Assembly (NCBI RefSeq): GCF_900091465.1
Contig: NZ_FMHV01000002.1
Span: 4,836,001 to 4,900,000, forward strand
Length of the DNA stretch: 64,000 nucleotides
Reading direction: 5' to 3'
Source of the DNA: Micromonospora rhizosphaerae
Lineage (GTDB): Bacteria > Actinomycetota > Actinomycetes > Mycobacteriales > Micromonosporaceae
The notes beneath the pieces are model-generated. The model was not told where the DNA came from and searched no databases. It was given only the letters and a program-made list of their open reading frames with translations. A program made the position numbers and the translations under genes. Positions 15,691 through 28,104 of the stretch are shown here, piece by piece (positions within the stretch are counted from its first letter, which is position 1; every line of letters starts with the position of its first letter).

Positions 15691-16385
<695 letters not shown>

Positions 16386-16389
<4 letters not shown>

Positions 16390-18938
16390 TCCTGCGGCCC
16401 TTCCGACGTGGTCGGGGTGGCGGCGGGCAGCCGCAGCACCATGGTCAGTCCCCCACCCGGGGTGGTCTCCGGGGTGATGCTGCCACCCATCGCCTCGGCG
16501 AGGCCGCGGGACAGGGCGAGGCCGAGACCGACGCCGGTCTGGTTGTCCCGGTCGCCGAGACGCTGAAACGGCAGGAAGACGTGCTCCCACTGGTCCTCGG
16601 GAATGCCCGGCCCGATGTCGATGACCCGTAGCTCGACCTGGCCGGCGTGGGCGCTGGCGGTGATGGTGGGCGGCCGGCCGGGCGGGCTGTAGCGCAGTGC
16701 GTTCGCGACGATGTTGACCAGCACGCGCTGCAGCAGGCCCGGGTCGGCGACGGCGGCCGGGAGATCGGCGGGGATGTCGGTGGTCACGTCTGCCGCCGCC
16801 GGTCCCAGCTCGTCCAGGGCCCCGGGTACGGCGTCCTCCAGGCCGATCGCGGTGGCGGTGATGCCCAGCACGCCGGCCTGCAGGCGGCTCATGTCCAGCA
16901 GGTTGGCGACCAGCCGGCCGAGCCGGTCGAGGGACTCGTCCGCGGTGGCGAGCAACTCCTCCCGGTCCTCGGCTTCAAACTCGACGTCGTGGCTGCGCAG
17001 GCTGCTCACGGCCGCCTTGGCGGACGCCAGGGGTGTACGGAGGTCGTGGCTGACCGCGGCGAGCAGGGCGGTGCGCATCCGGTCGGCCTCCGCCAGGGGC
17101 CGGGCGGTCGCGGCCTCCTCGGCCAGCCGTTCCTGGCGCAGCGCGAGGGCGGCCTGAGCGGCGAACGCCTCGACGATGCGCCGGTCGGCGGCCTCGAGCC
17201 GCCGACCGCTGAGCACGACGGTGAGCCGCTCGTCCACCGGCACCGTGGTCTCTCCCGCGCTGGGACTGCACGGTGGCGCCTCGCCGACACTGGCCACCAC
17301 CCGCCAGGCACCCTCCTCCCGCTCCCGGCCGGGTCGCCCCTCGGCGTCGGCGGCCAACTCGAGGACGCTGACCGCGCGCAGCCCGAAGGTCTCCCGCAGC
17401 CGGTTCAGCAGCGCCGGCAGCGGCCGCTCGCCGCGCAGGACGCTTCCGGCCACCGTGGCCAGGGTCTGCGCGTCGGCGGACGCGCGGGCCGCCTCCCGCG
17501 TCCGCCGGGCGGCAAGGTCGACGATCCAGCTGACCGAGACGGCGACGCCGACGAAGACGCCGAGGGCGAGCAGGTTCTCCGCCTCGGCGATGGTCAACGT
17601 GTGCAGGGGCGGGGTGAAGAACCAGTTCAGCAGCAGGGACCCGCCGAGTGCGGCCAACAGCGCCGGCCACATACCTCCGACCAGGGCGACGCCGACGACG
17701 CCGGCGAGGAAGAGCAGGATGTCGTTGGTCAGGGAGAGGTCCGGCAGCGCCTTCAGCAGCAGGGTGAGCAGCGGCATGCCGAGCAGGGCCAGCGCGAAGC
17801 CGAGCAGGCGCCGGCGCCGCGACAGCGCCGCCGGGACGGCCGCGGCGCGCCGCCCGCGGCCGGCCTCCGGATGGGTGACCAGGTGTACGTCGATCGGGCC
17901 GGACTGGGCGGTCGTGGTGACGCCGACGCCGCGGGAGAACAGCTGCGCGAACCGGCCCCGGCGGCTCGCGCCGAGGACCAGCTGGGTGGCGTTGACGCCG
18001 CGGGCGAAGTCCAGCAACGCCTCGGGGATATCGGCACCGAGCACCTCGTGGTACGTGCCGCCGAGGCTCTCCACCAGCACCCGCTGCCGGGCGAGCTGGG
18101 CCGGATCGGCGCCGGCCAGTCCGTCGGCGCGGGCCACGTGCACGGCGAGCAGGTCGGCGCCCTTGCTGCGGGCGGCGATCCGGGCGGCCCGGCGGATCAG
18201 CGTCTCGCCTTCCGGCCCGCCGGTGAGCGCCACCACCACCCGCTCGCGCGCCTCCCAGGGCTCCGAGATACCGTGCTGGGCGCGGTACCGGTCGAGCTGC
18301 TCATCGACCTTGTCGGCCAGCCAGAGCAGGGCCAGCTCGCGGAGCGCGGTCAGGTTGCCCACCCGGAAGTAGTTACCGAGCGCGGCGTCGATCTTGTCGG
18401 GGCGGTAGATGTTGCCGTGCGCCATCCGCCGGCGCAGCGCCTCCGGCGTCATGTCGATCAGCTCGACCTGTTCCGCCGCGCGGACGATCTCATCCGGCAC
18501 GGTCTCGCGCTGGGTGATGCCGGTGATCTGGGCGACGACGTCGTTCAGCGAATCCAGGTGCTGGATGTTGACGTTGGACAGTACGGTGATGCCGGCGTCG
18601 AGCAGCTCCTGGATGTCCTGCCACCGCTTTTCGTTGCGGGAGCCGGGCACGTTGGTGTGCGCGAGCTCATCGACCACCGCGACCTCGGGCCGGCGGGCCA
18701 GCAGCGCGTCGAGGTCCATCTCGGTGAACTCGGTGCCCCGATAGTTGATCGTCCGGCGCGGCACCTGCTCCAGGTCACCGATCATCGCCGCGGTGTGCTT
18801 ACGGCCGTGGGTCTCGACGAAGCCGATCACCACATCGGTGCCGCGCTCCGCCCGGCGGTGCGCCTCCTCCAGCATGGCGTAGGTCTTGCCGACGCCGGGC
18901 GCAGCACCCAGATAGATCCGCAGCTCTCCACGTGCCAC
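16386..18938 (-). CDS. kdpD: KdpD, potassium-sensing sensor histidine kinase
   Basis: This 850-residue kinase has the N-terminal KdpD P-loop GAAPGVGKTYAML and the VVDELAHTNVPGSRN segment, a universal-stress-type domain (about residues 240-350), about four membrane helices (TPPLHTLTIAEAENLL region), a GAF-like stretch, the HisKA box VSHDLRTPLASAKA and the HATPase box NIVANALRYSPPGRPP. The GTG at 18938 is preferred because GAGAGG lies eight bases upstream and the protein then starts VARGELRIYLG; a longer in-frame GTG at 18974 is possible. It is separated from kdpC by a 17-bp hairpin. It senses low potassium or turgor and drives KdpE. Confidence 0.93.
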
Positions 18939-18996
18939 GCGGACATCCTCTCGCTCTGCCGGCCGCCCGGTCACCCGGACGACATTCTGCCGATCG

Positions 18997-19041: not shown

Positions 19042-19923
19042 TCAGCCGACCGGGTACTTCTTGTCGAGGGCGACGTTCAGTTCCAGCACATCGACCCCGG
19101 GTGCACCCATGAAGCCCAGCGCCCGGCCGTCGGTGTGCTCGGCGACCAGGCGGCGGATCTCCGCCGGGTCCGCGTGCCGCTCGCGGGCGACCCGGGTGAC
19201 CTGCAACTCGGCGTACGCCGGGCTGATGTGCGGGTCGAGGCCGCTGCCGCTGGCGGTGACCGCGTCGGCGGGCACGGCCGGGTGGGCGGGAGCGTCACCA
19301 CGGACCGGGGTGATCAGCCCGCCGGCCGCGACGTAGTCCTCGCCGGGCTTCGCCAGCTCCACCGGCACCCCCTGGTACGAGGAGATGAACGGGGTCGCCG
19401 GCGCGACCTGGTTGACGCTGACCACGCGGGTGATCGCGCCGGTCAGGCCGTTGGCGTGGAACACCGCCAGCACCGCACCGACCCCGTCGGGGGTGCAGTA
19501 CGGGCGGCGCCCGTCGACGCCGTCGAGCTCGCCGATGGCCTTGCTGCGGACGCAGACCTGGGTGAGCAGGCTCTGCGTGGAGTCGTCGGGATTCGGGGCG
19601 ATGGTGTCGACCACGCTCTCCGGGCCGAGGTTGCTCGCGGCGGTGGAGGTGGGGTCGTAGCCGTCGCCGGCGGCCGACGGGCGGGACTGGAAGTAGCGCG
19701 GGACGGGGTTGCCGTCCGCGTCGGTGAAGGCCTGGCCGATCAGGGCGCTGCCGACGGTCTTTCCGTTGACCGTGACGAGGGAGCCGTCCGCCTTGTCGTT
19801 GAGGCCGGGCAGCCGGCCGACCGCGACCAGGGCGAGCGGGTAGGCCAGTCCGAGCAGGACGGTGAAGACGAGCAGCGCGCGCAGAGCGGCGAGGTGCTGG
19901 GCGAGCCAGGTGGGTAGGCGCAT
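19042..19923 (-). CDS. kdpC: KdpC, potassium-transporting ATPase subunit C
   Basis: This 293-residue protein has a single N-terminal membrane helix (RALLVFTVLLGLAYPLALVAV), SLVTVNGKTVGSALIGQAF, YFQSRPSAAGDGYDPTSTAAS and the C-terminal LDPHISPAYAELQVTRVARER, all typical of KdpC. It is about 100 residues longer than the E. coli subunit, with an insertion around residues 115-205 that includes two cysteines. The ATG at 19923 shares one base with the kdpB stop (TGATG), which couples translation. KdpC stabilises the complex and helps ATP binding to KdpB. Confidence 0.95.
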   Translation of the reverse strand: MRLPTWLAQHLAALRALLVFTVLLGLAYPLALVAVGRLPGLNDKADGSLVTVNGKTVGSALIGQAFTDADGNPVPRYFQSRPSAAGDGYDPTSTAASNLGPESVVDTIAPNPDDSTQSLLTQVCVRSKAIGELDGVDGRRPYCTPDGVGAVLAVFHANGLTGAITRVVSVNQVAPATPFISSYQGVPVELAKPGEDYVAAGGLITPVRGDAPAHPAVPADAVTASGSGLDPHISPAYAELQVTRVARERHADPAEIRRLVAEHTDGRALGFMGAPGVDVLELNVALDKKYPVG

Positions 19924-22115
19924 CACGAGATCCCCGGGATGAACTGGATGAGCAGGTCGATGAGCTTGATGCCGATGAACGGCACGATGATGCCGCCGAG
20001 GCCGTAGCGCCACAGGTTGCGGCTGAGCAGCTTCGACGCGCTCGCCGGCCGGTACCGCACGCCCCGCAGGGCCAGCGGGATCAGCGCGACGATGATGATC
20101 GCGTTGAAGATGACCGCGGACAGGATCGCCGACTCGGGGCTGTGCAGGCGCATGATGTTCAGCGCGTTCAGACTCGGGTAGATGACGGCGAACATCGCGG
20201 GGATGATCGCGAAGTACTTCGCGATGTCGTTCGCGATGCTGAACGTGGTCAGCGCGCCCCGGGTGATCAGCAACTGCTTGCCGATCTCGACGATCTCGAT
20301 CAGCTTGGTCGGGTCGGAGTCGAGGTCGACCATGTTGCCGGCCTCCTTGGCGGCCGACGTGCCGGTGTTCATCGCCACCCCGACGTCGGCCTGGGCCAGC
20401 GCCGGCGCGTCGTTGGTGCCGTCGCCGGTCATCGCGACCAGCCGGCCGCCCTGCTGCTCCTTCCTGATCAGGGCGAGCTTGTCCTCCGGGGTGGCCTCGG
20501 CGAGGAAGTCGTCCACTCCGGCCTCGTCGGCGATCGCCTGGGCGGTCCGCGGGTTGTCACCGGTGATCATGACGGTGCGGATGCCCATCCGGCGCATCTC
20601 GTCGAACCGCTCCCGCATCCCCGTCTTGACGATGTCCTTCAGGTGAATGACGCCGAGGGTCCGGGCCGGTTGGCCGTCGAGGTGCTCGGCGACGACGAGC
20701 GGCGTACCGCCGATGCCGCTGATCTCGTCGACAAGCTGGCCGACCTGCTCGGTCGGGTGGCCGCCGTTCTCCCGCACCCACTTCATCACCGCCGCCGCGG
20801 CGCCCTTGCGAATGCGGCGTACCCCGCCGTCGACGCTCTCGACGCCGAGGTCGACGCCGCTCATCCGGGTCTGGGCGCTGAACGGGACGAAGGTGGCGTT
20901 CGCGATCAGGCCGGGCTCGCGCTCGCGGAGCCCGAACTCGTTCTTGGCGAGCACCACGATCGAGCGACCCTCGGGGGTCTCGTCGGCCAGGCTCGACAGC
21001 TGCGCCGCGTCGGCCACCTCGTCCGCCGTGACGCCCTCGACCGCCAGGAACTCGGCGGCCTGCCGGTTGCCAAGGGTGATCGTGCCAGTCTTGTCCAGCA
21101 GCAGCGTGTTGACGTCGCCGGCCGCCTCGACCGCGCGCCCGCTCATCGCGAGCACGTTGCGCTGCACCAGCCGGTCCATGCCGGCGATGCCGATGGCCGA
21201 CAGCAGCGCGCCGATGGTGGTCGGGATGAGGCAGACCAGCAGGGAGACCAGCACGATCCCGGTCACCCCGGCGTTGGTGATCGCCTGGGTGTCAGGAGCC
21301 GCCGCCTGGTAGCCCTTCGAGAAGATGGCCAGCGGCTGGAGGGTGACCACGGCCAGCAGGAAGATGATCGTGAGTGCGGCGAGCAGGATGTTCAGCGCGA
21401 TCTCGTTCGGCGTCTTCTGCCGGCTGGCGCCCTCGACCAGGGCGATCATCCGGTCGATGAAGCTCTCCCCCGGCTTCTGGGTGATCTTCACGATGATCCG
21501 GTCGGAGAGCACCTTGGTGCCGCCGGTGACCGCACTGCGGTCGCCGCCGGACTCCCGGATGACCGGAGCCGACTCGCCGGTGATCGCGGACTCGTCGACG
21601 CTGGCAATCCCCTCGACCACGTCCCCGTCACCGGGGATGATGCCCCCGGCCTCGACCAGGACGATGTCGCCCTGCTTGAGCTCCGGCGCGGGGACGGCCT
21701 CGTCGCGGTAGGTGTTCGCCGCCGCGCCGGGCGCCCAGCCGAGCAGGCGGGTGGCGACGGTTTCCTTCCTCGCCTGCCGCAGGGCTGCGGCCTGGGCCTT
21801 GCCCCGGCCCTCGGCGACCGCCTCGGCGAGGTTCGCGAAGACCACGGTCAGCCAGAGCCAGACGGTGATGGCCCAGGCGAAGACCGACGGGCTGGTCACC
21901 GCCAGGACGGTGGTGAACGCGGCGCCGATCTCCACGATGAACATCACCGGGTTGCGCCACAGCGTGCGGGGGTCGAGCTTGCGCAGCGCGTCGGGCAGGG
22001 ACCGGATCAGCTGCTTCGGGTCGAGCAGGCCGGCGCCCACCCGGTTGCCATGGGTGGCCGGGGTGCCGGCGATCGGCTCCTCTTCGGTGCCGGATGTCAC
22101 GGGCGTGACGGACAT
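19923..22115 (-). CDS. kdpB: KdpB, potassium-transporting ATPase subunit B (P-type ATPase)
   Basis: This 730-residue P-type ATPase contains the phosphorylation motif [13 protein letters not shown], the TGES loop [10 protein letters not shown], the hinge [21 protein letters not shown] and six or so membrane helices. ATG 22115 is used because GAGGA lies a good distance upstream; GTG 22139, which overlaps the kdpA stop, would add eight residues and is an equally possible coupled start. KdpB hydrolyses ATP to drive potassium uptake through KdpA. It sits second in the tightly overlapping kdpFABC string. Confidence 0.95.
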
Positions 22116-22135
22116 GTCCTTGTTCCTCATAGTGG

Positions 22136-23791
22136 TCACAGCCCCTCAGCGAAGGGGCCGAGCGCGAGCGCGGGTAGGAAGGTCAGCGCGACGAGGATCA
22201 CCGTCACGCCGACGACCATCCCGACGAAGAGTGGTCGGTGGGTCGGCAAGGTGCCCTCGGAGGCGGGGGTGGGCTTCTGGCGGGCCAGCGAGCCGGCCAG
22301 GCCGAGCACGAAGATCATCGGCAGGAACCGGCCGAGGAGCATGCAGATCCCCAGTGCCGTGTTCCACCACGGGGTGTTGACGGTGATCCCGGCGAACGCG
22401 GAGCCGTTGTTGTTGCTGGCCGAGGTGAACGCGTAGAGCACCTCGGACAGGCCGTGCGGTCCGACGTTGAGCGCGGTGGCGTTGTTGCCGGTGGCGAAGG
22501 CCGCGGCGGTGCCGACCAGCACCAGGGCCGGGGTGATCAGGAAGTACAGGGAGGCCATCTTGATCTCCCGCGAGCCGATCTTCTTGCCGAGGTACTCCGG
22601 GGTCCGGCCGACCATCAGCCCGGCGACGAACACCGTGATCACCGCGAGGATCAGCAGGCCGTAGAGGCCGGAGCCGGTGCCACCGGGCGCCACCTCGCCG
22701 AGCATCATGTTGACGATCGGCATCATCCCGCCGAGCGCGGTGAAGGAGTCGTGGAACGAGTTCACCGCGCCGGTGGAGGTGAGCGTGGTCGCCGCGGCGA
22801 AGGTCGCAGAGTTCGACACGTCGAACCGGACGTCCTTGCCCTCCAGCGCGGCGCCGATCGCCTGCGGGACGGTGCCGTGCCCGGCCAGCTCGAAGACGTT
22901 GGTCAGGGTGATGCTGGCGAGCGCCAGGGTCGCCATGACGGCGGCGATCGCGTAGCCCTGGCGGTTCTGGCCGACCATCCGGCCGAAGACCCGGGGCAGG
23001 CTGAACGGGATCACCAGGAGCAGGAAGATCTCCAGCCAGTTGGTCCAGGTGGTCGGGTTCTCGAACGGGTGGGCGCTGTTGGTGTTGTAGAAGCCGCCGC
23101 CGTTGGTGCCGAATTCCTTGATCACTTCCTGGCTGGCCACCGGCCCGCCGGTGATGTGCTGCGTGCCACCGGTCAGCGTGGTCACGTCGACGCCGTCGGA
23201 GAGGTTCTGCACCGCGCCGCCGATCATCAGGACGATCGCGCCGAGCACCGCGATCGGCAGCAGGATCCGCAGGGTGATCCGGGTCAGGTCGACCCAGAAG
23301 TTACCCAGCTCCCCGGTCCGGCTGCGGGCGAAGCCACGCACCAGGGCGACCGCGACGGCAATACCCACCGCGGCGGAGAGGAAGTTCTGCACCGCCAGGC
23401 CGGCCATCTGCACCAGGTGGCCCATGGTCGACTCACCCGAGTACCACTGCCAGTTGGTGTTGGTCACGAACGAGACCGCGGTGTTCCACGCGCCGTGGGT
23501 CATCACCGGGTCGAAGCCCAACGAGAGCCACAGGTGGTTCTGCAGTCGCTGGAAGGCGTACAGGAACAGGATCGAGACGGCGGAGAAGGCAAGCACGCTG
23601 CGGGCGTAGACGCCCCAGGACTGCTCGGCCGCCGGGTTGACGCCGACAAGGCGGTAGATGCCGCGCTCGATGCGGGAGTGCCGGGTGCCGGAGACCACCC
23701 GGAACATGTAGTCGCCGAACGGCTTGTAGGCGGCGACCAGCGCCGCCACCAGCACCAGGACGAAGATGACGCCGGCTGTCGTCGTGCTCAT
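22136..23791 (-). CDS. kdpA: KdpA, potassium-transporting ATPase subunit A
   Basis: This 551-residue membrane protein has about ten helices and four P-loop-like filter segments such as [52 protein letters not shown] and [14 protein letters not shown]. It forms the selective potassium channel of the Kdp complex. The ATG at 23791 ([10 protein letters not shown]) overlaps the kdpF stop by one base; the longer frame that reads through kdpF is not coding in that frame. Confidence 0.95.
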
Positions 23792-23880
23792 CAGAAACGC
23801 TCTGGGAAGAGCAGGGCGGCGACCAGGAAGATGCCCAGGCCGATCGCCAGTACCAGACCGACGGCGTTGACGGCGCTCAC
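23791..23880 (-). CDS. kdpF: KdpF, small membrane subunit
   Basis: A 29-residue ORF reads [18 protein letters not shown] followed by [11 protein letters not shown]. It is a single hydrophobic helix ending in PERF, as KdpF does in other bacteria. The GTG at 23880 overlaps the stop of the 27-residue ORF upstream, and its own stop overlaps the kdpA ATG. KdpF stabilises the Kdp complex in the membrane. Confidence 0.9.
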
Positions 23881-23960
23881 AGCTTCTCCACACCCCTCAC
23901 CACGAGGGTGAGCGCCGCGAACAGCGCCACCGTCAACAGCACGAACAGCAGGTCAGACAC
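23877..23960 (-). CDS. 27-residue membrane micro-protein leading the kdp operon
   Basis: The frame GTG 23960 to stop 23877 encodes [18 protein letters not shown] followed by LVVRGVEKL, a single predicted helix with a basic end. A strong GAGGAG Shine-Dalgarno lies six bases upstream (ATGAGGAGTCAGCT before the GTG), and the stop overlaps the kdpF GTG in a GTGA, so it is likely translated. It has no firmly known function. A second small subunit of Kdp, or a regulator of it, is the most natural reading; a translation-coupling leader is the alternative. Confidence 0.75.
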
Positions 23961-23990
23961 AGCTGACTCCTCATAGCTGACTAGTTCTCA

Positions 23991-24007
23991 CGACCGCCTT
24001 CCGGTCG
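23991..24007 (-). promoter_or_regulatory. Small leader hairpin before the kdp operon
   Basis: CGACCG and CGGTCG form a 6-bp inverted repeat around a five-base loop, about 30 bases upstream of the first kdp ORF. It may be an mRNA leader feature; no known riboswitch consensus is visible. Confidence 0.35.
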
Positions 24008-24081
24008 CGCCGGGCAATCAAAACGCCCCTGACCTTGGAAGGACAGGCTCTATAACGCGACCATGACGGCGAACCGCCGAT

Positions 24082-24102
24082 TCTTGACGCCTTTTTGACG
24101 GG
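24082..24102 (-). promoter_or_regulatory. Candidate KdpE box upstream of the kdp operon (two 11-bp spaced repeats)
   Basis: TTGACG occurs at 24084-24089 and again at 24095-24100, an 11-bp (one helical turn) direct repeat as expected for an OmpR-family dimer, about 120 bases before the first kdp ORF. An AT-rich stretch (GTTATAG on the minus strand, 24050-24056) between the box and the gene could be the -10 region. The same layout occurs at 24629-24649. Confidence 0.55.
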
Positions 24103-24125
24103 GCCTGCTGATCGGGTGAGGGCCG

Positions 24126-24512
24126 TCACAGGTTGCCGTCACCCGGCGACCCGATCGACCTCATGTGGCGGTACCCGGTCCCGAGCGCGGCGGCCAAGGC
24201 GATCACCGCGGCGTACGACCAGGCGTGTCCGCCGCCGGTCAGCTCGCCGAAGCGGTGCGCGAGGAACCCGACGAACGTGGCCGTCGCCAGTGCCGTCACC
24301 GCAGCGACCGCCCGCAGGTCCGCCACCAGCGCCGCATAGGCGCCGGCGGCGACGGCCATGAGGACGGCCCGTGGCGGCAGCTCCGCCGGCGGGAACATGG
24401 CCGCGGCCAGCAACGCCACCCCGACCATCACCACCCAGCCGACCGCCACGCTGACCCCCGTCGGCGTCGGCTCCCCGTACGTCGCGCCCTTCTGAACTCG
24501 ATCGACAGTCAC
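24126..24512 (-). CDS. Small polytopic membrane protein resembling the KdpD membrane domain (DUF4118-like)
   Basis: The 128-residue protein has four hydrophobic helices (VGWVVMVGVALLAAAMFPPA, RAVLMAVAAGAYAALVADL, AVTALATATFVGFLAHRF and AYAAVIALAAAL-like), the size and layout of the DUF4118 membrane block of sensor kinases, but it has no kinase part. GTG 24512 has GGAGG six bases upstream. Its own candidate KdpE box at 24629-24649 and its place next to the kdp genes suggest co-regulation with Kdp. The family match is a judgement from helix pattern; a hypothetical membrane protein is the safe label. Confidence 0.65.
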   Translation of the reverse strand: MTVDRVQKGATYGEPTPTGVSVAVGWVVMVGVALLAAAMFPPAELPPRAVLMAVAAGAYAALVADLRAVAAVTALATATFVGFLAHRFGELTGGGHAWSYAAVIALAAALGTGYRHMRSIGSPGDGNL

Positions 24513-24628
24513 AGCACGCCTCCGGCGGCAACGAGGGCCCGCACCTCAGGCCCGCCTGTGGCCAATACCAGTCCGGTCCATAGCCGCCGTCGATGGCTTT
24601 CACGGATCTGCTACGCGCCGACCGGCAA

Positions 24629-24649
24629 TTTTGACGCCGCCTTAACGGC
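24629..24649 (-). promoter_or_regulatory. Second candidate KdpE box (same 11-bp repeat layout)
   Basis: TTGACG (24631-24636) and TTAACG (24642-24647) repeat with 11-bp spacing, with the same CC after the first half and G after the second as in the box at 24082. It lies about 117 bases before the GTG at 24512, close to the 122 bases seen upstream of the kdp ORFs. Apart from this box and the -10 element at 24868, nothing else is visible in the 24513-24879 gap. Confidence 0.5.
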
Positions 24650-24867
24650 ACGCCGGGCAGCCATCTCTCGGCCTCATTCCAGCTGTCCCGCGGGCTGCCG
24701 TGAAAAACGCGTGAAAATTGCGCGGGGGTCGAGGCCTATTCAGTCGCATGGGCGATGCCGCCAGCCTGGTCGCGGCCGGCTCCGCACCCTCGGCGCCGGC
24801 GGCGGACGCCCGGCGCAGCGCCCCCGCACCGCCCGCATCGGCTGGTCGATGACTGGCTCAAGCGGCC

Positions 24868-24873
24868 TAACCT
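24868..24873 (+). promoter_or_regulatory. -10 box of a leaderless promoter for the AfsR-like regulator
   Basis: TAACCT ends six bases before the GTG at 24880. No Shine-Dalgarno sequence is present. Confidence 0.6.
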
Positions 24874-24879
24874 GATCAG

Positions 24880-27800
24880 GTGGCCCCCGAACTGTCCCTG
24901 CTGACCAGAGTGGCCTGGCGCGATCAGGAGATCACCGGGCCCCAGTTGCGCGGGCTCCTCGCACTGCTAGCCGACCACCTGGTCAGCGGGTGCGGCACGA
25001 CCAGGCTCATCGACGCCCTGTGGCCGGACCGCCAGCCACAACACCCGTCGAAGGCCCTGCAGATCCTCGTCTCCCGCGCTCGTGCGGATCTCGGCGCCCA
25101 CCTGATCGAGAAGACGGCCAGCGGCTACCGCCTGAACCTGACCGAGGAGCAGGTCGACGCCACGGCCGTACGGGTGCATGCCGACGCGGCCGAGCGGCAC
25201 GCCCGTGCCGGCGAGGACCTGGCCGCGCTGGCCGAGGCCGAGGCCGGACTCGCCCTGTGGGCGGCACCGCCCACCGACGGGACGTTCGCCGACGATCCGC
25301 TGGCGGTGCTGCGGGCGGCGCGCGTGCCGATCTACCGGTCGCTCGAGCGCTCCCGGGCGCTGGCCCTGTCCCGGCTCGGTCGACACGCCGAAGCCCGCCC
25401 CGCGCTCGACACGCTCGCCGCACGCCGCCCCGAGGACGAGGAGATCCTGGCCGCGCTGCTGCGCTCGGAGGCCGCGACCACCGGCACGCCGGCGGCCCTG
25501 CGCCGCTACGAGGATTTCCGCCGCCGGCTGCGCGACGACCTTGGCAGCGATCCCGGCCCGACGCTGCGGCAGATTCACCGAGAGCTGATCGGCGGCGAGG
25601 CTCACGTCACCCGACACAACGTGCCCCACGAGCCCAACATGCTGCTCGGCCGCGACGACGACATCGCGGCGGTGACCGCGCTGCTGCGCACCGCGCGGGT
25701 CACGTCGATCGTCGGACCGGGCGGCCTCGGCAAGACCCGTCTCGCGTACGCGGTCGCCCGGCGGGCCGAGCAACCCGTCGTGTACGTGGTCCCGCTCGCC
25801 GGCGTCACCGCCGACCATGAAGTGGCGGCCGAGGTGGCGTCCGCCCTCGGGGTCGGCGAGTCCCGCCAGCCCCCCGTCGGCCCACGCACCGTCGCCCCGG
25901 GCGCGGTCTCCGCGATCGCGGCCGCCCTCGGTCCCGGTCCCGGGCTGCTGGTGCTGGACAACTGCGAACAGGTCGTCCAGGGTGTCGCCGACCTGGTGAA
26001 CGCGCTCGTCTCGATGACCCGCGACCTGCGGGTGCTCACCACCAGCCGGACCCCACTGGGGCTGTCGTCCGAGTCGGTTCACCCGCTGCCCGAGCTGGCC
26101 CTCCCGGCGGCGGTCGAACTGTTCACCCAACGGGCGCGCGCCGCCCGACCCGGCGCCGCTCTGCCCGCCGACGCGGTGGCGGACCTGTGCCGGCACCTCG
26201 ACGGGCTGCCGCTGGCGGTTGAGCTGGCCGCGGCCCGGGTGCGGGTCATGACGGTCCCCGAGATCACCCGCCGGCTGGACGACCGGTTCGCCCTGCTCCG
26301 CGGGGGCGCCAGGGACGCGCCGCAGCGCCACCACACCCTGCACGCCGTGGTCGACTGGAGCTGGGCCCTCCTCCGGCCCAGCGGGCAGGCCGCCATGCGC
26401 GCGCTGTCGATCTTCCCCGGTGGATTCGACGCTGCCGCCGCCCGGCGGTTGCTCGGACACGACGACGTGCTGACCGTGCTTGAGCACCTGGTCGACCAGT
26501 CGCTGCTGAAGGTCGAGGACACCCCGGCCGGGGTGCGGTTCCGGATGCTGGAGACCGTCCGCGAGTTCGCCGCAGCCCGCCGGGACGAGGCCGACGAGAC
26601 CGAGCAGGTGATCAGCGACTTCCTCGGCTGGGCGCGGGACTTCGGCGTGAGCCACCACGAGTCGCTGCTCGGGGCCGCCGCCTTCACCGCGGCCGAGCTG
26701 ATCCGTACCGAGCAGGACAACCTGGTGCTGGCGCTCCGGTACGGGCTGGCCCGCTGCGACGGCGGGACGGTCGCCGCGACCTCGGCGGTCCTCGCCGGCC
26801 TGTGGACCCTGGACGCCAACTACCCGCGGATGCTGACCCTCACCGATGAGACGGCCCCGGTCCTCTCCCACTTTCGGCCTGAACCGCCGTTTCTGGAGGT
26901 CACCCGCACGACCTCGGTCCTGGCCGTGGCGCACACCTTCATGATGCTCGGGCCGCGCGCGACCCGCGCGCTGGTCACGCTGCGCCGGCTGCCTCCGCCG
27001 CCACCGGGCACCCTGATCGGCGCCCTGGCCACGGTCCTGTGCGCGGTGCCGGAGATGGCCGTCGATCCCGCTGCCCTGCTCCGGTTCTGCGACCATCCCG
27101 AGCCGCTGGTGGCCGGAGTCGGGAACTGCCTGGCCAGCTACGTGTTCGAGCAGTCGGGCCAGCCCGAGCACGCCCTGGCCGCCGCCCGGCGGATGCTCGG
27201 CGCGCTCGCCGACCGGCCCGTCCCCTGGATCCGCGTCCTCGCCCACTCCCGGGTCGGTGAGCTGTGCATGCAGGCCGAACTCGGCGAGGAGGCGCGCGGC
27301 AACCTCACCGCCGCCCTGAACCTGCTGACCGAGTCCGGGCCCTGGCTCGACGTGCTCCAGATCCGGTGGGCGCTGGTGCTGGTCAACCTGCAACTCGGCG
27401 CGGTGGACGAGGCGGAGCGCTGGCTGGCGCTCGCCACGTACGATCGCGCGGACGACGCGTACCGGATGCGGTCCTTTGAGACCGGGGTCCGCGCGGAGGT
27501 GGCGCTGGCCCGCGGTGACGTCGAGGCGGGCCTGCGCCTGTGGCGGGCCGCCGTGGATCAGCTGGCGACCCCGCTGGATCCGCTGGTGTGGGCGCAGCCG
27601 GACGGTGATCCGCCATGGATCCTGGAGGTACGGGCCGCCGCCGTCGTCGCCCACGCCCGGCGCGGCGGGCTGGACGCCGTCGAAAAGTTGGTCGACGACC
27701 TGTCGGGGAAGCTTGCCGCGCTGCTCGCCCGTCCCCTCGACAATCCGCCGGCGTTCCTGGCGCAGTTGCCGATCTGCGGTGCCATGCTGCTGGCACTGGC

Positions 27801-28104
27801 GATGGTGGACCTCGAGCGGGGGGATCGCACCGGCGACGAGCAGTTGCTGGCCTCCGGCGCACGCCTGATCGCGTTGGCGGAGCGCTTCGGCTGTCTCCGC
27901 AACTTCCAGCCCAGCATGTCGTCCGCCGCGGCGCGGCGGGCGGCCGAGCAGGCCGACCGGGCGGCGTACGACGAGGCGTCCGCGTCGTACGCCGCCCTCG
28001 GTCACGACGACCTGCGGGCGGCCGCCCTCACCGCGCTGCGCGCCCGGCCCTCGGCCGGTCAGCGCGACGGGTCCCGGTCGTACAGTCTCCGGGCCCACAG
28101 GTAG
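24880..28104 (+). CDS. AfsR/BTAD-type transcriptional regulator with NB-ARC ATPase domain
   Basis: This 1074-residue protein has an N-terminal winged-helix domain (about residues 1-85), a bacterial transcriptional activation domain (about 90-240), the Walker A GPGGLGKT at about residues 278-285 and Walker B-like LLVLDNCEQ of the NB-ARC ATPase, then a long helical C-terminal half. SARP-AfsR proteins of this kind activate antibiotic or stress genes. The start is GTG 24880, supported by a TAACCT box. It overlaps the convergent DrrB-like permease by 46 bases. The neighbouring exporter may be a target, but this is inferred from position only. Confidence 0.85.
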   Translation: MAPELSLLTRVAWRDQEITGPQLRGLLALLADHLVSGCGTTRLIDALWPDRQPQHPSKALQILVSRARADLGAHLIEKTASGYRLNLTEEQVDATAVRVHADAAERHARAGEDLAALAEAEAGLALWAAPPTDGTFADDPLAVLRAARVPIYRSLERSRALALSRLGRHAEARPALDTLAARRPEDEEILAALLRSEAATTGTPAALRRYEDFRRRLRDDLGSDPGPTLRQIHRELIGGEAHVTRHNVPHEPNMLLGRDDDIAAVTALLRTARVTSIVGPGGLGKTRLAYAVARRAEQPVVYVVPLAGVTADHEVAAEVASALGVGESRQPPVGPRTVAPGAVSAIAAALGPGPGLLVLDNCEQVVQGVADLVNALVSMTRDLRVLTTSRTPLGLSSESVHPLPELALPAAVELFTQRARAARPGAALPADAVADLCRHLDGLPLAVELAAARVRVMTVPEITRRLDDRFALLRGGARDAPQRHHTLHAVVDWSWALLRPSGQAAMRALSIFPGGFDAAAARRLLGHDDVLTVLEHLVDQSLLKVEDTPAGVRFRMLETVREFAAARRDEADETEQVISDFLGWARDFGVSHHESLLGAAAFTAAELIRTEQDNLVLALRYGLARCDGGTVAATSAVLAGLWTLDANYPRMLTLTDETAPVLSHFRPEPPFLEVTRTTSVLAVAHTFMMLGPRATRALVTLRRLPPPPPGTLIGALATVLCAVPEMAVDPAALLRFCDHPEPLVAGVGNCLASYVFEQSGQPEHALAAARRMLGALADRPVPWIRVLAHSRVGELCMQAELGEEARGNLTAALNLLTESGPWLDVLQIRWALVLVNLQLGAVDEAERWLALATYDRADDAYRMRSFETGVRAEVALARGDVEAGLRLWRAAVDQLATPLDPLVWAQPDGDPPWILEVRAAAVVAHARRGGLDAVEKLVDDLSGKLAALLARPLDNPPAFLAQLPICGAMLLALAMVDLERGDRTGDEQLLASGARLIALAERFGCLRNFQPSMSSAAARRAAEQADRAAYDEASASYAALGHDDLRAAALTALRARPSAGQRDGSRSYSLRAHR

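Follow-up and report, generated by a model that had tools for sequence, protein, structure and literature searches.

A small membrane protein gene of Micromonospora rhizosphaerae shares a four-half-site KdpE-type element with the kdp operon and probably belongs to the same potassium-starvation regulon

The stretch of DNA analysed here (the window, 64,000 bases of the genome of the soil bacterium Micromonospora rhizosphaerae) carries a complete kdp locus on its minus strand. The locus starts with a conserved 27-aa ORF (23877-23960), followed by kdpF (23791-23880; 29 aa, PF09604), kdpA (22136-23791; PF03814), kdpB (19923-22139, assigned from its translation and from matches beside kdpA in relatives), kdpC (19042-19923, with the start chosen at MRLPTW and matches beside kdpB in relatives), kdpD for the sensor kinase (16386-18974; domains KdpD, DUF4118, HATPase, HisKA and Usp) and kdpE for the response regulator (15691-16389). 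Upstream of the locus, also on the minus strand, lies a gene with a GTG start (24126-24512) for a 128-aa small membrane protein, here SMP, and then, divergently, an AfsR-type regulator gene with a BTAD domain (24880-28104, plus strand). The 27-aa ORF, the first of the kdp operon, encodes one hydrophobic stretch and gave no match in a Pfam scan; it stands ahead of kdpF in all 20 aligned kdp loci and is apparently an unnamed conserved Kdp peptide. The kdp leader also holds an inverted repeat (CGACC..GGTCG, 23990-24009) that is varied but kept in aligned Micromonospora-type kdp leaders; an Rfam search of 23700-24900, which includes it, found no match.

Hydropathy analysis of SMP gives four segments (16-46, 47-79, 65-86 and 97-113, the second and third overlapping), in line with the original prediction of a four-helix membrane protein. 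The window protein belongs to no Pfam or NCBIfam family above cut-off, an NCBIfam search returned nothing convincing, and the SMP profile, compared with solved structures, gave no useful match (best E 0.55). That the lack of a family betrays a reading frame that is not a gene is, nevertheless, exceedingly improbable: 71 of the 300 family genomes searched encode homologues (E ≤ 1e-3), among the matches listed there is no internal stop except in one weak extra match (genome G297), and the proteins share a conserved motif around GFLxNRFGEL, which for the family reads GFL(A/V)(N/H)(R/Q)(F/Y)G(E/D/V)L.

The kdp and SMP genes had been linked by two matching boxes, and both boxes are present on the plus strand, TTGACGCCTTTTTGACGG at 24084-24101 near kdp and TTGACGCCGCCTTAACGG at 24631-24648 near the SMP gene. 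A search of the whole genome (7,181,580 bases) for the repeat with 11-bp spacing agreed with the prediction, in that the exact pattern TTGACGN5TTRACGG matches twice, only at these two boxes, and its reversed control not at all. Once up to two mismatches are allowed, the pair pattern becomes unspecific (150 matches against 122 in the control), and the pair alone is thin evidence. Alignment of 20 kdp upstream regions, including that of the window, brought out a second 11-bp repeat pair, 32 bp downstream of the first, which the prediction had missed. The sequences ahead of 40 SMP genes, that of the window among them, were inspected as well, and the second pair is found at both promoters. The earlier observation is one half of a larger element of four half-sites. 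On the coding strand the full element reads CGTNA-N6-CGTNA-N16-CGT-N8-CRTNA, with half-sites at 0, 11, 32 and 43, that is, a spacing of 11-21-11. The two KdpE-type elements of the window both lie on the minus strand, at 24053-24100 for kdp (C of CGT at 24100, 24089, 24068 and 24057) and at 24600-24647 for SMP (24647, 24636, 24615 and 24604). By coordinates, the first base of the element is 140 bp from the first kdp ORF (the 27-aa ORF ahead of kdpF) and 135 bp from the SMP start. The exact four-part pattern has two matches in the 7.18-Mb genome, at the kdp and SMP promoters; if up to two mismatches are tolerated it has 5, and so has the control. A matrix was made from 59 kdp elements, with the window's own kdp element among them and SMP elements left out. 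On it the SMP site reaches 40.5 bits and the kdp site 58.0, and no other place in the 64-kb window does better than -3.3.

SMP and kdp adjoin in the window, so that a promoter duplication is conceivable, and the SMP element might then be a relic, or a chance match, without function. To us this seems very unlikely, given how the element behaves at other SMP genes. The kdp matrix was applied to 260 bp of sequence ahead of each of 40 SMP genes, one from locus L181 and the others from the 40 stretches that had been fetched around SMP matches (39 of these; L108 was left out, having no tblastn match). The best scores exceeded the 99.9% background level in 26 of the 40 regions and the 99% level in 35; none of the 40 reversed controls exceeded the 99.9% level. 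Upstream of SMP in L094, L096, L106, L107 and L181, where some starts are uncertain, the score stayed below the 99% level. With a first background, contaminated by real elements, none of the 40 regions reached p < 0.001; the threshold from the second is conservative, since this background still holds real elements (in L108, a stretch with SMP, and in L204 before kimA). The element is present before SMP also in loci far from kdp: 13 of the 21 SMP loci without kdpA in the stretch pass the 99.9% level, a set that includes L102, which has kdpBCDE and passes, and L107, which has other kdp genes. Of 22 same-genus loci examined, 17 have the pattern, and in 16 of these it is placed 132-138 bp from the SMP start. 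Conservation is concentrated in the half-sites, whose columns average 1.45 bits across 34 SMP elements against 0.49 for the other columns. The distance to SMP is kept in loci without the AfsR-like gene (24880-28104), which makes it unlikely that the second element of the window controls that divergent gene instead.

Among the 300 family genomes, 148 contain the exact element, compared with about 4 for the reversed control. Genes were assigned to 150 listed matches (there are at least 150 in all). By coordinates, kdpA follows 70 of these at a distance of 281-359 bp, and SMP follows 27 at 120-189 bp. Reading the remaining 53 one by one placed 28 more ahead of kdpA, for a total of 98 (in one of the genomes counted, G291, kdpA is found in separate fragments only). 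Two elements precede kdpD, one of them in a genome (G298) where no kdpA was found, three precede trkH (PF02386), and two precede kimA-type permeases, one of which matches the solved KimA structure 6s3k (E 1e-100), the other being a PF13520 protein 73% identical to it. Altogether 132 of the 150 listed elements stand ahead of kdp genes, trkH, kimA or SMP. The other 18 comprise two before large Pfam-less transporter-like proteins, one before a Usp gene, one before a 146-aa ORF, three before short-chain dehydrogenases (two of them some 605 bp away), three before small hydrophobic ORFs and eight that have no assigned gene or are chance-like. The PHO box of PhoP is likewise built of 11-nt repeats, of the GTTCA type. 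We think that reading unlikely here, as exact elements are limited to two in the genome and the targets are potassium genes.

Across the class, 36 of 231 genomes (three of the same genus) carry the exact element, and 2 its control. The 15 loci that were fetched divide into three with kdpA, six with kimA and/or a short kdpD-kdpE and six where none of the query proteins was found. Two side observations concern single loci. Small ORFs that look hydrophobic by eye lie behind exact elements in three g29 genomes (L144 1578-1856, L145 3621-3986, L146 3641-3991), and possibly encode another small membrane protein of the regulon. Outside the family, near-identical element-like sequences with no queried potassium protein beside them (L218, L219 and L223) look like a repeated sequence.

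The regulator that we propose for both elements of the window is KdpE. With a match at E ≤ 1e-70 as the definition, which takes in kimA-type paralogues, a KdpE-type regulator is encoded in 248 of the 300 family genomes, and kdpA in 225. The regulator accompanies the element in 147 of the 148 element genomes, the exception, G063, being 77% complete; here and below, genome co-occurrence counts are raw and ignore phylogeny. The strict pattern is absent from 101 of the 248 regulator-bearing genomes, and from 17 of the 23 that have the regulator without kdpA. The element, the regulator and an importer gene stay together in some genomes without kdpA: the order is short kdpD, kdpE, element and trkH in G069 and G148, and element, kimA, short kdpD and kdpE' in G208. 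At L206 and L207, where no kdpA was found, the short kdpD-kdpE, an exact element and trkH are kept, and Kdp-type signalling has apparently been rewired to a Trk importer.

Residues R193, R200 and T215, which E. coli KdpE is reported to need for DNA binding (PMC3264566), are conserved in the window KdpE according to an alignment in which the numbering is inferred. In Mycobacterium smegmatis a 22-bp KdpE site, CCGTAAAGAAACCATCAAGGCC, was mapped by footprinting and EMSA (PMC5401905). Its authors, in the part of the report drawn on here, describe it as not noticeably similar to the sites known from E. coli and elsewhere (PMC5401905). The site, CCGTAAAGAAACCATCAAGGCC, contains CGTAAA and CATCAA 11 bp apart, and it scores 11.8 bits on a matrix of the first pair of the 59 kdp elements, on the same strand and in the same register, a value reached by 5 of 20,000 shuffles; on this matrix the pairs of the window reach 35.6 (kdp) and 25.7 (SMP). 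Since M. smegmatis KdpE is described as binding a single pair in vitro (PMC5401905), a need for two pairs would not be implied by that system.

Another OmpR-family regulator might use the elements instead, and the main rival is a KdpE paralogue. The genome has a second potassium locus (C2:5631000-5643000; L204 5763-9884) with kimA, a short kdpD and kdpE'. The short kdpD encodes 461 aa with DUF4118, HisKA and HATPase domains and no N-terminal KdpD part, and kdpE' encodes a protein 62% identical to KdpE. This locus has a degenerate 11-21-11 element of its own at the kimA promoter (19.9 bits), and in G208 the element is accompanied by the kdpE'-type paralogue only. The kimA element, however, misses 3 of the 16 template positions, whereas kdp and SMP have exact elements in the same genome, and the element pair agrees with the site mapped for KdpE in M. 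smegmatis. Among the 75 kdpA-less genomes, the element occurs in 6 of the 23 with a KdpE-type regulator and in 1 of the 52 without, a count that does not separate KdpE from its paralogue. On balance we consider control by kdpE' or another family member rather improbable, and KdpE remains our preferred regulator.

SMP is accompanied by kdpA in 69 of its 71 genomes, and by a KdpE-type regulator in 70; Kdp evidently works without SMP, judging by the far wider occurrence of kdpA (225 genomes). Class-wide, the SMP profile found 4 of 231 genomes, two of them of the same genus. Kdp genes are present in 21 of the 40 stretches fetched around SMP matches. At other loci (L069-L074) SMP sits beside a conserved gene set unrelated to potassium, with a TetR gene behind it. 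In five loci (L194, L199, L202, L203 and L213) the element, SMP, the 27-aa ORF, kdpF and kdpA follow in one run, and the kdp operon begins with SMP. These fusion loci represent four genomes, as L199 and L202 come from one metagenome-assembled genome; L213 comes from outside the family (genome G326). SMP overlaps the 27-aa ORF in L194, L199, L202 and L213, and in L203 an N-terminally short SMP ORF of 91 aa runs past its start. The 11-21-11 element is exact in L203 and L213, and its first half-site is CGTAT in L194, L199 and L202.

Some further neighbours of SMP are recorded for their own sake. Genes for a PLP-dependent decarboxylase (PF02784) and a short-chain dehydrogenase recur beside SMP in L093, L101 and L107, with KdpE-type elements near both genes in L107; a link between polyamines and potassium is possible. 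A gene belonging to one cluster of related sequences is found behind SMP in L080 (8041-8724), L075, L076, L077, L081, L084, L086 and L090, and the product of the L080 member resembles PRiA4_ORF3, just under the Pfam cut-off.

Taken together, the shared element, the nature of its targets, the co-occurrence with the regulator and the operon fusions make it very probable that SMP belongs to the KdpE potassium-starvation regulon. The shared regulon put forward in the original prediction is thus upheld at the level of sequence, where the M. smegmatis site also fits, and SMP appears to be switched on together with the Kdp pump through the same control element.

Less can be said for the view of SMP as 'KdpD-like', which is weakly supported. 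The layout of its segments is similar to that of the KdpD membrane domain, with four in about 100 residues by hydropathy, and sub-threshold DUF4118 matches (E up to 1) occur in 10 of 30 aligned SMP homologues, the window's protein being among the 30. The best of these (E 1.9e-5, 24.8 bits) lies below the 28.4-bit gathering cut-off, and a rescan of ten proteins gave five at E < 0.01; the likeness to KdpD is suggestive. The window copy itself, in contrast, had no DUF4118 match at E up to 1 in the Pfam scan, and hhalign of the SMP profile against KdpD membrane domains gave a probability of 0.1% (with a shallow KdpD alignment of 12 sequences, Neff 1.7). The hhalign register pairs the same loop in both, GFLAHRFGELT of SMP with NWFFTPPLHTLT of KdpD; the FTPP loop motif between helices 3 and 4 of the window KdpD is absent from SMP. 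SMP is possibly a distant relative of DUF4118, and we do not call it a member.

What SMP does within the regulon is a more speculative matter. It is established for Kdp systems elsewhere that KdpD phosphorylates KdpE at low potassium. If this holds here, a fall in potassium would lead KdpD to phosphorylate KdpE, and KdpE dimers could then occupy both 11-bp repeat pairs just upstream of the kdpFABC and SMP promoters; the pair starts are 32 bp, or about three turns, apart, which would put both pairs on the same face of the DNA. Such occupancy would activate both promoters, so that SMP, a predicted four-helix membrane protein, would be made together with the Kdp pump. As a kinase-less relative of the membrane domain, SMP might then insert beside KdpD and tune its signalling in a feedback. 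We favour this role as the most likely one for SMP, and still hold it tentatively.

Almost equally likely, though also at well below even odds, is an accessory function at KdpFABC or KimA: SMP would be in the KdpE regulon as a KdpF-like subunit of a potassium importer, and not as a partner of KdpD. It overlaps the small ORFs ahead of kdpA in L194, L199, L202, L203 and L213. A permease of one cluster is divergent to SMP in L077, L080 and L086, and L076 has just an 81-aa piece; in L077 this KimA-type permease, and in L076 the piece, stand beside SMP without kdp, and the L080 permease, the only cluster member compared, matches solved KimA at E 2.4e-79. L194 also has a KimA-like gene (41%). On the other hand, the repeated weak DUF4118 matches point to the membrane domain of KdpD, SMP comes after kdpDE in L102 (and, by a weaker partial match, in L214), and most kdpA genomes have no SMP match. 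Nor is SMP KdpF itself, as the window protein has no PF09604 match and the true kdpF lies at 23791-23880. Returning to the role at KdpD, we tentatively propose a wider scheme that would take in both sites of action: a free-standing relative of the KdpD sensor domain, induced by KdpE, might assemble with KdpD or with the Kdp or KimA importers and tune potassium sensing. In this scheme KimA, TrkH and kdpDE would be joined to the same actinobacterial potassium regulon by the single four-half-site element.

KdpDE is a textbook sensor, and the mechanism by which KdpD senses potassium is still debated. A protein that is conserved, linked to kdp and under the same control would offer a concrete handle on this question, and suggests that this familiar sensing system has a new accessory component. 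The four-half-site element makes the potassium-starvation regulon of actinomycetes predictable. If SMP is indeed induced by KdpE and tunes potassium sensing, a small protein would close a feedback loop in a two-component system that is widespread. According to a 2023 review, KdpDE had not been analysed in any Streptomyces model (PMC10117811). The literature covered, mostly outside subscription papers, yielded nothing on a KdpE regulon in Micromonospora, or on a stand-alone DUF4118 or four-TM protein as a member of any KdpE regulon.

Compared with known KdpE sites, the elements described here combine familiar and new features. As in M. smegmatis, an actinobacterial KdpE would recognize two half-sites 11 bp apart in the same orientation; there, one pair was mapped (PMC5401905), whereas the elements here consist of two pairs, 32 bp apart, and a further gene is a target. 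A four-TM protein such as SMP goes unmentioned in the passages of that report drawn on here (PMC5401905). The E. coli site, as described, has two 6-bp half-sites with a 5-bp gap, which again makes an 11-bp repeat, but it is a single, AT-rich pair (TTTATA/TTTACA), unlike the elements here (PMC3264566). SMP itself resembles DUF4118 (PF13493), the four-helix membrane domain of KdpD, in having four segments at similar spacing, and differs from KdpD in standing alone, without KdpD, Usp, HisKA or HATPase domains or the FTPP motif. KdpF is, as proposed for SMP, a small membrane protein of the Kdp regulon; it is reported to interact with KdpD in a two-hybrid assay, and its overexpression to bring no important change in kdp regulation (PMC3618439). 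In contrast to KdpF, with its single helix and about 30 aa, SMP has four segments and, in the window, its own element, and exists beside kdpF. Finally, natural truncated forms of KdpD show that parts of this protein without histidine kinase activity do occur, as SMP would be; the truncated KdpD described keeps the N-terminal domain, whereas SMP would represent the membrane part alone (PMC11018627).
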